From NCBI GenBank assembly GCA_009746045.1, contig RPFO01000716.1:29978-93977 (forward strand): a DNA stretch of 64,000 nucleotides, given 5' to 3'. The translations under genes were made by a program, and so were the position numbers. Position 1 is the stretch's first letter. Each line of letters starts with the position of its first letter. Below, one piece after another: positions 1 through 12,000 of this stretch. Origin of the DNA: Mesostigma viride (Eukaryota > Streptophyta > Mesostigmatophyceae > Mesostigmatales > Mesostigmataceae). Below the pieces are notes generated by a model that saw nothing but the letters and a program-made list of their open reading frames with translations, was not told the DNA's origin and made no database searches.

Positions 1-3000
1 AGGCCGCTGAGACGTCCGCGGCGCTCGCCTCGCGCACCGCTGGTTTTGAGGAGGAACGGCGGCGCCAGAGGCAGCGGGAGAGGAAGGGCGGACGCCGGCA
101 GCCGCCAGCATTACCCACAGGGCCTTACGTGTTCCGCAAATTCCGCACCCTCGAGCTGCCCGGGGTCAGTGTATAAGTAGACAGGCGGTTTCTGCCAGGT
201 TCCTGGAGTTGCCTGGGGTCAGTGTACATATAGACATGTGGTTTGTCCCTGTTTCATGCTGCACTTGGGTTGCTGATGCTATGTACCACATTTCATCACG
301 CTTCATGAATACTCCTATCTAAATACGCACAATAACTGGTAGAGATGCTGGCACCAAGGGGCAGTGGGATGAGGCCACCTGAGGGGCTTCGGTGTGACGG
401 TATTTGGTTAAGGTTCGTGGACATGTCACTCAACTTCGCGCCGCATTTGCTGTAGTTAGAGGGGCTGGGGAGATGACTCTATCGTGTTACGATCCCTATC
501 TGGTAAGACTAAGATGTAGTTGTTATGATCCCTATTTGTTACAACTAGGATTGTAGTGTTATAATCCCTATTTGATAAGACTAAGATTTTTGTGTTATGA
601 TCCCTATTTGATAAAGCTGAATCCAGCCCGGTAAGACGAGCGCGTATCTCCCCCCCTTCCTTCCCTATGAGGAGGGCCCCTCCCCGTTCCCCTGCGTCAT
701 GACAAGCCCCCCCCCCTCCTCCTCCCCCTCCCCCCTTGGTGCGGTCGCGCGTTACTGAGCGGGAAACCCTGATCTCCCTCAAAAGGCCTTTCTGATGTGC
801 TCACGCCTGTTCTCTTATATGCTTCTCATATTTGTGCCGATAGTAGACTCCCTCTACTGTATATGACTCCACATCTGCTGTCTCACTTCATGTGTTCTTC
901 CTATGTGTGCCGACTAGTACTCCCTTTACTGTATATGACTCCACATGTGCTGTCTCACTTCATGGGTTCTTCCTATGTGTGCCGAGGCTCTCCTGGTTGG
1001 GATCGTGCATCCGCCGTAGAAGGGTGCCAACTCTACTGGGCTCTTCCCTGTCGTTGGGGTGCTCCGTGACGCGGGTGATGCAGTGTGATTTGGATTCTTC
1101 GGTGATTCGGGTCCATAGCCTCATGGGTGGCTCTTTCCTGCGTGCATGGTCTCTATGGGGAAACATCTCTGTCCCCACGCGCATGGGCTCTGGAATAGGC
1201 TTCCCGAGGCCAGCCCATTTCCAAGGGGGTAGGATTCCTTTAGTCCTTGGACAGTGTACCCATTCTTCTCCATCCTTTTTTGTTTCTGATTATCCAAGGG
1301 GGTAGGATTCCTTTAGTGCTTGGACAGTGTACCCATTCTTCTCCATCCCTTTTTGTTTCTGATTATCCAAGGGGGTAGGATTCCTTTAGTCCCTGGACAG
1401 TGTACCCATTCTTCTCCATCCTTTTTTGTTTCTGATTATCCAAGGGGTAGGATTCCTTTAGTCCTTGGACAGTGTACCCATTCTTCTCCATCCCTTTTTG
1501 TTTCTGATTATCCAAGGTGTAGGATTCCTTTAGTCCTTGGACAGTGTACCCATTCTTCTCCATCCCTTTTTGTTTCTGATTATCCAAGGGGTTTGGATTC
1601 CTTAGGTCTAGGACAGTGTACCCATTCTTCTCCATCCCTTTTTGTTTCTGATTATTCAAGGGGGTAGGATTCTCTTAGGCCTAGCAGAGTGTATCAATTT
1701 TCCTCTATCCTGTAGTACTCTGATTATCCCCTATGTCTTGATCTGGGTGCTCACACGCTGGCTTCAACCACCCCCGATTTGTCCCCCTGTCTCCCCCATT
1801 GTCCTCATCTCGTCTCCTCCTCCCCCTTCCCCCCCTACTTCATACAATATACCGTTTCAACAAATATACTGTCCTCAGTCCTCATGTTCATCTGACTGCC
1901 CCCACACACCCCGCACGCCCTCTTGCAGCTCCACCCACCCGCGTCGCGCGCGCTTATCATGATGCACACCCTGGCGGCAGACCCTGGCATCCGGGGCATC
2001 ATGAACAAGGTGAGCCAGTGGGTTCTGTTGGTTCTTCCATCCTTTAGCGCTGCTCATGGTCAACGCGATCGGTCGCCGGCCCATCTGAGAATGGGGAAAT
2101 AAGGTGAGATGGGCAGGGGTGTGGTGGTCTTCCCATCCTTTTTTAGCGCTGCTCATGGTCAACGTGATGGCTCGCCCATCTGAGAATGGGGAAATAAGGT
2201 GGGGCAGATGCACTGCGATTCTCCTCGTGGTTAGTTGCTCTTGTTTGGCCTGACAGTAATCATATGCCTTCCCGGCTTAAACCCTATTATCCTTATGGTC
2301 CCGGACAACCCTTTCTTTCTCAGGGTGAAGGGCGAGTTCCTTTCTCAAAGCCAGACGTAGCAACGGCCATGGTTTGCACGCACTGAATGTGCTGTTTGGT
2401 AGGTCTCGCTTCTTCCGTGTTTGGTTTCTCTCTGTGTGCCGCTCCTCCCCTCTTTCCTCATTTTCCTCCCCTTTTCCCTAATTTTCCTGCCCCCTTCTTT
2501 TATTTTTCTGCCCTCTTCCTTTTTTCCTCCCTTCTTCCCTTTTCCCCTGCCCTCTTCCTTTTTTCCTCCCCTCCTCCCTTTTTTCCCTCCCCTCTTCCCT
2601 TTTTTCCTGCCCTCGTTCCCTAATTTTCCCCTCCCCTCTGCCCTTATTTTCCTGCCCTCTTTCGTTAATTTCTCTTCTCTCACTTTATTTATTCCCCTCC
2701 CCTCTTCCCTTATTCTCCTGCCCTCTTTCCTTAATTTCCTCCTCTCTCACTTTATTTATTCCCCTCCCCTCTTCCCTTATTCTCCTGCCCTCCTTCCTTA
2801 ATTTCATCCTCTCTCTCACTTTATTTATTCTCCTCCCCTCTTCCCTTATTCCTCTCCCCCCAGTACCGCTGGACGGTGGGCATCATGACCGAGATGCCCC
2901 CTGTGGGCCTCGTCGGCGTCAGCCCGATGTGCCTCCTCGGCTACAACAAGGTGCGTGCCTGCTGGCGTATTGGAACCAGATGTGCCACGTAGAGCAAGGT

Positions 3001-9000: not shown

Positions 9001-12000
9001 CGGGGCATGGGGGCCGGACGGCGAGGTCGGGGCTGGCGCCGGCGGGGCGGACGCGTCGGCGCTTCCAACCGCACTGGAGACGGTGGCCAGCATTCTGAGG
9101 TATGAATCGCTCCCTTTGCATGCCAGTATTCTGAGGATGTTCTACAGCACCAATATTCTGAGGTGTGCTTGCCGTGGATGACTGTACCAAGGGAGATGGT
9201 GACAAACATTCTGAGGCATGAAGGGATGTCTTGCTTTGCATGTTATGACAGTAGCATTAGGTTTTGGAAGTGCTTTCATGGCATGAATCTCCTGAATTAT
9301 GCTTGGTGTGCATGGACTAGGTGGCGGATGGATGGCGTGACCGTTTGGCCCGCACTTCTAGATCGTATCTGTTTAATGATTGGCTGGTACTAATTGGTTG
9401 GACTGGTTACTAGGGATGGCTTAGGGAAGAAAGCTCTCAATAAGCTATGATGGCAACATGCTGGTTTGTGATTTTACGAGCTGTTGGGTGCCCTCCTCTT
9501 CCTTGTGTTTTGAGGGAAACCTGGGTGCCCTCTTCCTTATTCCTTGTTGTGTACTAAAGGGTCAAATTTACGTTAACGGGTACCCGCAGATGCAGTCACA
9601 TTGTTTTCATAAATTGAATAATAATAATTAATTAATTACTTGGTCCGCGTGTGCAGTAATAAGATTAAAATGTATGGGTTTGGCACATGCGTGATTGTAA
9701 TCTCATGCATGTCCATGTTCCATCCTTTTGGCGTGACGTTGGGGTGGTCATCACTCCGCGCGCGTTGTGCTGTGTCACAGGAACGTGCTCGAGCATCCGA
9801 GCGAGGATAAATTCAAGCGGCTCCGGAAAGTGAGTACCCGGCCTGTGTGCATGGCTCAGCAATCACAGCGAACATGAGTGCAATCAATCAATTATAGCTC
9901 ACGTAACGAGCGCTGACTGGACGTTTGACCCACAGGGAACATGAGGGTGGGGAATGGCTACCGTCACCCTTGTGTTGCAGGAGAATAATTTATTATAAGA
10001 CACTGTGGCTTTGCAAGGCAACCCCCTCTGCTGTGCATTGAGTTAAAACGTTTTTCTTGTCGTTTCAAGGTTGGTTGGGGTCTTTTGGCCACTGGCTACT
10101 GACGTGCTTGTGCTTTAGGAGAATTTCTTTTGAGAAATCAATTAATAGTTTTTCTCTTGCTGCTTTAAGGTTGGGGCTAGCGCGATGCTACCTGTCCGTT
10201 TGCAACATGTGGCTCAAATGCCGCGGCTTGAGGGTACTGTCTGAGATGGAAGAATGGGGTGCGCTTGTGGCAATGGTGTTATGGGCTCCTCCACCATGTG
10301 TTGGCCCATTTTCCGTGCATGTTGGCGTACTTCTCGGTCAGTGGCTTAGCAGGCATCACTATATCTAAAAGCGCTGTCGTAGTATTCAGAGATGGTAATA
10401 CTCAACCAGCTTCTATTTGCCGTCGCTGCGGTCGTGCCTGTGCGTTGTTACCGTTGCCTGTACATTGCCTGTACCTGCGTTGTTACCGTTACAGGACAAC
10501 AAGGCGTTCCAAGCGCGAGTGGGGAGGTACTCTGGTGCGTGTAAAATAAAAAGGTTGTACTGCGACGTGTGTTGGCCCATCTCAGCCTTTGGCATGTGCC
10601 GAGGAGCCATTGTGGGTGGCCGCACAGGTGAAAAGGCGGGCAGGGTAGAAAGGCCTCGATGCTTCAGATCAGTTAGCATATTGCTACAACTATCTGAGTA
10701 TGGTATGAATATGGTACATCTACCACAAAGGTGTCCAAGTGTTTTGAGTCAAACTTCTGTGGTGCCAATTGGTCCGTTATGATTGATTGCGAGAGAGAGG
10801 GAGGGAGAGAGAGAGAGGGAGGGAGAGAGAGAGAGAGAGAGAGAGAGAGAGAGAGAGAGAGAGAGAGAGAGAGAGAGAGAGAGAGAGAGAGAGAGAGAGA
10901 GAGAGAGGGAGAGAGGGAGGGAGGGAGGGAGGAGGGAGGGAGGGAGGGAGGGAGGGAGGGAGGGAGGGAGGGAGCGAGAGAGAGAGAGAGAGAGAGAGAG
11001 AGAGAGAGAGAGAGAGAGAGAGAGAGAGAGAGAGAGAGAGAGAGAGAGAGAGAGAGAGAGAGAGAGAGCTTGTGTGTATGTGTGTGTGTGAAAAAGCCAT
11101 CAAGAGTGATTAAACTTCATGTGACTACTAGTGTGCAAAGGTCGCATCTTGTGTGCGACGGCTTCAAAGTGGGGCGGACAGGGAAAGGTTTGAGGGAGAG
11201 AATATGAGCAGCAGGGGATGACAGAAGGGTATGGTTTTGCAGGCTTAAGGTAAGGGAGATGGTTGGTGCGTAGTCTTTATACTGCACATGGTAGCACGGA
11301 AGTCGTGAAGACAATGGTGTGGTGATCTCAGGCGAGGGAATATGCTGAAATTCCTAACGAGTATTATACCCCATACAGAACGCCTGTGGCCAATATTCCT
11401 ATCTAAGTACCATCAAAATTCCTATCGAGTACTATACGCCATACAGAACGCCTGTGGCCAATATTCCTATCTACCGCCCACCTGCTGGTTGCCAAGTTTC
11501 TGCTTGATTCACTTTGGCACGCATGCTCTGCACCAGGCGCTCGGTGCGCGTGTCTATTCGATACGGGAAGGCAAGGTATCCTTGTGCTCTTTCTTCTACT
11601 ATGACTTACTGGGGTATATGCCTGGCTGCTGCTGGTACCCAGACAATTCTGGGTCTCACAGCGGGAAACCAAGTGAACAGTTTATATGAGTCATTATTGT
11701 TTTAGTTTTTTTTTCAGATTAATTTTTTTTTAGTTATTGCATGATCGGGGTTTCCAGCCAGCTGACTTTTATGGTCAGGTCAAGGGTTCAGCCAACGGAC
11801 CAAGCTTCTGGTTTTCATTTCGGGGGCGGGCGGGGAGCCGGACCCTTGTTCTTGTTCTTGTTCGGGGTCGGGGCCGGGGTCGGGGTCGGGGTCGGGGTCG
11901 GGGTTGGGGTCGGGGTCGGGGTCGGGGTCGGGGTCGGGGTCGGGGTCACGTTCGCGCTCTCGTTCTCATTCTTGTAGTAAATGTCTCCCAAGTTTCATGG

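Follow-up and report, generated by a model that had tools for sequence, protein, structure and literature searches.

Downstream copies of splice donors within introns of two genes of Mesostigma viride

In several introns of Mesostigma viride, an early-diverging streptophyte alga, the last exon bases and the 5' splice site (donor) occur again a short distance downstream, which raises the question of whether a process aimed at exon-intron junctions produces such copies or whether they are remnants of ordinary local tandem duplication. The question concerns 64,000 nucleotides of contig RPFO01000716.1 (assembly GCA_009746045.1, positions 29,978 to 93,977 of the forward strand), the whole of which is called the window below. 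A first-pass annotation had claimed that in one gene, encoding a WLM-PUB metalloprotease, the ends of exons 1 to 7 are all repeated downstream. The finding is real, local and mostly explicable, and is a new variation on the known tandem repeats that span exon-intron boundaries. The copies are probably fossils of ordinary local tandem duplications that chanced to span a junction and were tolerated through use of the exon-proximal donor.

Donor copies and their host genes

The analysis was based on 15 introns with an open frame at every join, nine of them in the WLM-PUB gene, four in a Kelch-repeat gene and two in a YbeY gene:

1..12664, plus strand: WLM-PUB gene, its 5' part beyond the window start, with an open frame over the joins
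WLM-PUB joins (first intron base/first exon base), part 1: 165/1929, 2010/2864, 2951/4431, 4527/5140, 5194/6621
WLM-PUB joins, part 2: 6834/7655, 9100/9781, 9830/10495, 10535/12486
18614..25754, plus strand: Kelch-repeat gene, intron starts 18743, 20626, 21789 and 23060, modelled start codon at 18614
44472..45720, minus strand: YbeY gene (partial model), intron starts 45544 and 45282, without donor copies

The spliced pieces of the WLM-PUB gene, which has homologues in plants and algae, matched the Pfam families WLM (3.6e-36) and PUB (3.4e-17), and the Kelch and YbeY exons gave Pfam matches in single frames. The spliced Kelch protein equals the JGI model Mesvir1/25417 at 100% over 348/348 residues; this model has one more upstream exon and hence a 16th intron, 18127-18593, outside the set of 15. 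Introns of the WLM-PUB and Kelch genes are 613-2504 nt long, and six of the eight internal WLM-PUB exons are small (40-96 nt). In the published Mesostigma viride genome, for which the 2019 paper describes full-length isoform sequencing, the mean intron is 1142 bp long and repeats make up 30.1% of intron space (PMC6947507). Since the window begins within the reading frame of the WLM-PUB gene, the introns noted earlier need not be the first seven of the gene.

Each donor segment, from -30 to +20, was aligned locally with the first 500 bp of its own intron and, for comparison, of each of the other 14. Local alignment replaced an ungapped anchored score, which skipped overlapping copies and misjudged whole-unit repeats such as that of the first WLM-PUB donor (W1). 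The own-intron score exceeded all 210 mismatched pairings (maximum 23) at 8/15 donors, namely W1, W3-W7 and the Kelch donors K2 and K3, where the tandem repeats are direct, local, in the same orientation and made of both exon and intron sequence. The count stayed at 8/15 at thresholds of 20, 23 and 26 and at ranges of 200-800 bp, and the reverse-complement control gave 0/15 donors. The last 30 exon bases alone had a significant copy at 5/15 donors. Donor W2 did not pass the score test (own score 17, P=0.20); it is included solely on inspection of its 94/95-bp units, which brings the donors with a copy to nine of 15. The donors concerned, all on the plus strand except the last case, are:

149..254, plus strand: donor W1, intron start 165; 53-bp tandem duplication, copy donor at +53
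2005..2203, plus strand: donor W2, intron start 2010; heads 94/95-bp tandem units, copy donors at +94 and +189
2945..3040, plus strand: donor W3, intron start 2951; 48-bp duplication
4508..4730, plus strand: donor W4, intron start 4527, within the codons HEL/TH; copies at +65 and +190 (the latter without GT)
5172..5490, plus strand: donor W5, intron start 5194; copies at +58 and +288
6826..6902, plus strand: donor W6, intron start 6834; copies at +25 and +46
9076..9222, plus strand: donor W7, intron start 9100; copies at +36 (no GT), +63 and +116 (GC)
20605..20835, plus strand: Kelch donor K2, intron start 20626; copy at +197; the true donor is that in P0076
21766..21900, plus strand: Kelch donor K3, intron start 21789; copy at +90; the true donor is that in P0076
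60048..60190, minus strand: candidate case in a DDE-like gene; 72-bp, 97% tandem repeat with donor-like CCAGAG/GTAATT twice; putative intron

The repeats reported for exons 1-7 are thus real, by score at six of the donors and by inspection at W2. Exact checks placed GGGGTCAGTGTA at 162 and 215 (W1), CAAGGTGCGTGCCTGCTGG at 2947 and 2995 (W3), CATCCACGAGCTGGTGAGTA at 4514 and 4579 (W4, with a third, decayed copy near 4704) and ATTCTGAGG at 9092, 9128, 9155 and 9208 (W7). Of the three exon 2 copies proposed in the annotation, those at 2007 and 2101 both read AAGGTGAG, and the site at 2196 differs, being AAGGTGGG. The copies of the exon 5 and exon 6 donors are real, but they are inexact repeats. 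Own-intron alignment found no donor copy at W8 and W9, the eighth and ninth WLM-PUB donors, nor at K1, K4 and Y1; the Y2 donor had an own score of 19 (P=0.06). The donor of the additional JGI intron, with a score of 20 in its own intron and at most 16 in any of the other 15, stayed under the threshold of 23 and may have a weak copy; the interior of this intron is without repeats.

At acceptors, the same comparison gave 2/15 sites (introns W6 and W8) that beat every mismatched score, followed by the W2 acceptor (score 23, P=0.005), which ranked next through a pyrimidine array. Acceptor counts at thresholds 20, 23 and 26 were 4, 2 and 2 of 15. The difference between donors and acceptors gave a Fisher P of 0.05 (8 v 2) or 0.06 (9 v 3). 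Two acceptor regions are duplicated as follows:

7385..7685, plus strand: exon 7 acceptor (exon start 7655), three upstream copies with spacings of 88, 79 and 88 bp
10425..10494, plus strand: exon 9 acceptor (exon start 10495), 35-bp tandem duplication, two copies

The exon 7 array, a mirror image of the donor copies, holds four copies of the acceptor with about 20 nt of exon, the most downstream of which fits the reading frame.

An assembly artefact was rejected from the window itself, sequencing reads not having been seen: the copies differ by about 10-25% (an estimate from reading the alignments) and the window is without N. Introner elements are characterised by sequence common to different introns. 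The present copies resemble them in being repeated sequence tied to introns, and differ in that the own scores of the eight donors beat all 210 cross-intron pairings. An introner or transposon origin was therefore rejected, with 0/210 pairings above 23 and 2-4/210 above 20 at longer ranges. Within the window, positions 1-12987 hold no member of any pair of repeats that are at least 60 bp long and separated by more than 1500 bp.

Background rate, choice of cases and shape of the duplications

Direct repeats cover 27% of the bases across the 15 introns. Interior intron 50-mers are repeated downstream at a rate of 18.5% (per-intron mean, 3097 positions), or about 18-20% overall, and 14/82 donor-like interior sites have a downstream copy. 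Elsewhere in the window, the rate was 3-17% in seven intergenic or transposon stretches and 5% and 0% in two exons, which indicates that tandem duplication is a common intron background. The idea of the first-pass annotation that introns grow by tandem duplication seeded on exon ends is thus borne out as to the abundance of local duplication. The seeding itself does not follow, since the first 90 bp or so of the introns are rich in duplications and the donors beyond those noted gave P=0.32.

A per-intron permutation predicted 2.8 donor matches, with P(>=8)=0.0008 (8/16 and P=0.0009 with the additional JGI intron). This value is not independent of the discovery, in which the best cases were picked. 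The seven donors noted at first gave 6 matches against 1.6 expected (P=0.0003), and the remaining eight gave 2 against 1.1 (P=0.32; 2/9, P=0.32, with the JGI intron). Since the excess sits in the picked introns, an enrichment of copies at donors in general is suggestive and not established. One reading of these numbers is that striking cases were selected from a high tandem-repeat background and that donors have no special relation to the repeats. The 2/8 matches among the other donors, the concentration of six of the eight matches in one gene and the 27% of intron bases in repeats agree with it; the overall permutation result does not, with or without the JGI intron, nor does K3, which has a donor copy in an intron whose interior is nearly repeat-free (0.02). 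This reading appears rather improbable.

Another reading is that a junction-targeted process places copies of donor-centred segments (about 20-45 nt) downstream, with a preference for 5' splice sites, so that introns grow from their donors; it could act, for example, when breaks or R-loops at exon-intron boundaries are repaired. It is in line with the excess of donors over interior sequence (8/15), with the small number of acceptors (2/15) and with several copies that match only from about -24 to +18. The absence of a significant excess at donors outside the first choice speaks against it, as does the extension of the duplication-rich zone to +90. Moreover, part of the excess is expected anyway, because selection holds one copy of the junction constant. 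A junction-targeted process is therefore considered unlikely, if somewhat less so than a mere choice of cases.

The extent of the duplications was followed in 40-nt windows along the junction, in which only downstream partners were counted, a procedure that lowers the values at later positions. Own matches numbered 0 of 15 at -70 to -40, 1 at -30, 5 at -20 and 8 at -10 and 0, then 7/15 at +10 to +50 and 6-7/15 through +90 (6 at +60 to +90), and 1-4/14 beyond. The duplications thus occupy the first 90 bp or so of the intron and reach shallowly into the exon. Exon 30-mers ending 20-80 nt upstream of the donor were copied in 0/15 cases at each of seven offsets, and the deepest exon reach of a copy is about 26 nt (the +288 copy of W5). 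The copies had been described as starting at the junction; the duplicated segments span it. The exon part made up 0.05-0.36 of the unit in ten events measured by hand, which comprise the unproven DDE repeat besides W1-W7, K2 and K3 (P ~1e-4, one-sided, against a uniform share); P was 2e-4 without the DDE case, or with the nearest copy of W7 (share 0.39) swapped in. The rest of the unit is similar too at W1, W2 (+94) and W3, and also at W4 (+65); three copies were too short for inclusion in this comparison. The positional identity profile peaks at the donor and is not relied on, the copies having been picked by their cores.

Consequences for splicing and the proposed explanation

The nine donors have 15 copies, of which 12 retain GT. 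The best copy scored at least as high as the true donor at 7/9 donors and slightly lower at W5 and K3, in a scoring that favours the copies because true sites were scored leave-one-out and copies were not. The copy 9-mer is identical to the true donor at W1, W3, W4 and W6. The earlier statement that splicing must choose the true donor among near-copies holds, the copies being of similar strength. If used, 13/15 copies would cause a frameshift or a stop; both exceptions are at W7, and one of them is without GT. The JGI protein model uses the first, upstream donors of K2 and K3. The W4 join yields HELTHMVH, which we take to be the metal-binding motif of such proteases, and the first donor must therefore be used there.

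Donor-like strength in a copy at 7/9 donors and the GT in 12/15 copies may suggest that the copies are functional decoys or back-up donors, selected to recruit the U1 small nuclear ribonucleoprotein or for regulated isoforms. Against this stands the breaking of the frame by 13/15 copies. Moreover, in the seven primary copies compared (W1, W3, W4, W5, W7, K2 and K3, W6, W2 and later copies being excluded), the differences amount to 8/63 sites in splice-site cores and 16/99 in exon-derived parts (six copies counted by script, K3 from a gapped alignment), so the cores are not specially held. Selection on the copy donors is thus not supported, and a functional role is very improbable.

When human minigenes carried two equal donors, with flanking introns of 365 nt, the upstream donor alone was used, and in 3' site choice some upstream preference remains (PMC9225289). 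The small exons and long introns of the present genes fit this upstream-donor rule. The preferred explanation, that the copies are fossils of ordinary tandem duplications with spacings of about 25 to 200 bp, builds on it. A duplication that takes in the donor with no more than about 26 nt of exon would be almost neutral, since short exons flanked by long introns would be recognised by exon definition and the upstream donor, proximal to the exon, would win. The inner donor would turn into intron sequence and then decay. The constrained original would keep junction repeats recognisable for longer than interior repeats, and this longer visibility may account for part of the donor excess. Duplications with more exon, or with an upstream acceptor copy, would be likelier to be misread and purged. 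The upstream-donor rule would thus let donor copies persist and make acceptor copies rarer, and introns would lengthen at their 5' ends. A wider generalisation, in which the introns of Mesostigma lengthen in one direction, from the 5' end, via donor-linked duplication, ghost donors exist genome-wide and their short exon reach marks the limit of what exon definition ignores, is unlikely.

Several points weigh against the fossil explanation. When the interior rate was doubled for longer visibility, 8/15 was still somewhat high (P=0.044; P=0.007 for 9/15). The constrained-copy effect does not explain everything, because duplications are almost as frequent in the zone from +10 to +90, free of coding constraint, as at the junction itself. 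The remaining part of the unit is without significant similarity at W5 +58, W7 +36, W7 +116, K2 and K3 (P 0.11-0.22) and likewise at the later copies W2 +189, W4 +190 and W5 +288 (P 0.36-0.84), and the W4 +65 match is about 60 nt out of register. Either old tandem units could have decayed outside their constrained part, or some copies could have been short inserts from the outset, and the latter would not fit. Finally, exon definition in Mesostigma is an assumption, and the WLM-PUB junctions are based on homology and the open frame, not on RNA.

Known systems and other features of the window

Turri et al. are said to have described, in 1995, a minisatellite with multiple splice donors in the human gene IFI6/6-16. 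Downstream repeat units are reported to act as donor sites (PMC4526556). The Mesostigma copies are similar in that tandem units bear a splice donor. However, the IFI6/6-16 copies are used and isoforms are made, whereas those of Mesostigma are few, diverged, apparently unused and spread over many junctions of one gene. Exon-intron boundaries are also crossed by internal tandem repeats in human segmental-duplication genes, where the repeats create novel introns or isoforms in recent paralogues (PMC2812944); in Mesostigma an existing intron is longer and the protein is the same. The AGGT intron gain of the Rogers/Hellsten model likewise involves tandemly duplicated splice-site sequence, but the ends of the new intron lie in two copies, whereas the Mesostigma copies lie inside an existing intron (PMC4974935, PMC2891723). 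Intron gain of this type was rejected, since the copies are 25-288 bp inside introns of at least 613 bp and away from acceptors, the 72-bp DDE case excepted. No report of donor copies in Mesostigma viride was found among the titles and abstract openings searched or in passages of its two genome papers, supplements aside. Intron lengthening without disturbance of splicing is seldom visible. If general, the copies would be natural tests of splice-site competition between near-identical donors at distances of 25-200 bp, in which the copies are presumably the losers, and a record of the exon length tolerated in a copy before spliceosome error, in one of the deepest streptophyte lineages.

Besides the three host genes, a Pfam scan of the window (stops as X) gave only transposon parts and weak or repeat matches. 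In 1-24 kb the scan covered a single minus-strand frame, at 14020-14874, besides the plus strand; in 51.5-56 kb it covered the copia frame alone, and in 56-64 kb one of the three plus-strand frames. The DDE-like gene, so named from a reading of its sequence, lies at 58328-61810 on the minus strand and contains the 72-bp tandem repeat. Apart from one weak hit, Pfam gave nothing for it at E up to 0.1, and a PDB search with one frame of 58-62 kb gave no match. Among 7999 candidates scored, one relative was obtained (P0196, 52%), which leaves the candidate intron uncovered.

A copia-type element occupies 50552-56910 on the minus strand, with a 1594-codon open frame that has reverse transcriptase and integrase domains. 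The two 433-bp repeats on its flanks are 100% identical, which indicates a very recent insertion. A dispersed 271-bp repeat at 43674-43944 and 47409-47677 (94% identical) contains GTTCGATTCC, which resembles a tRNA B box; ARAGORN and Rfam returned nothing for this repeat, which is possibly a short interspersed element (SINE). A perfect (GATG)170 array of 683 bp lies at 27184-27866.

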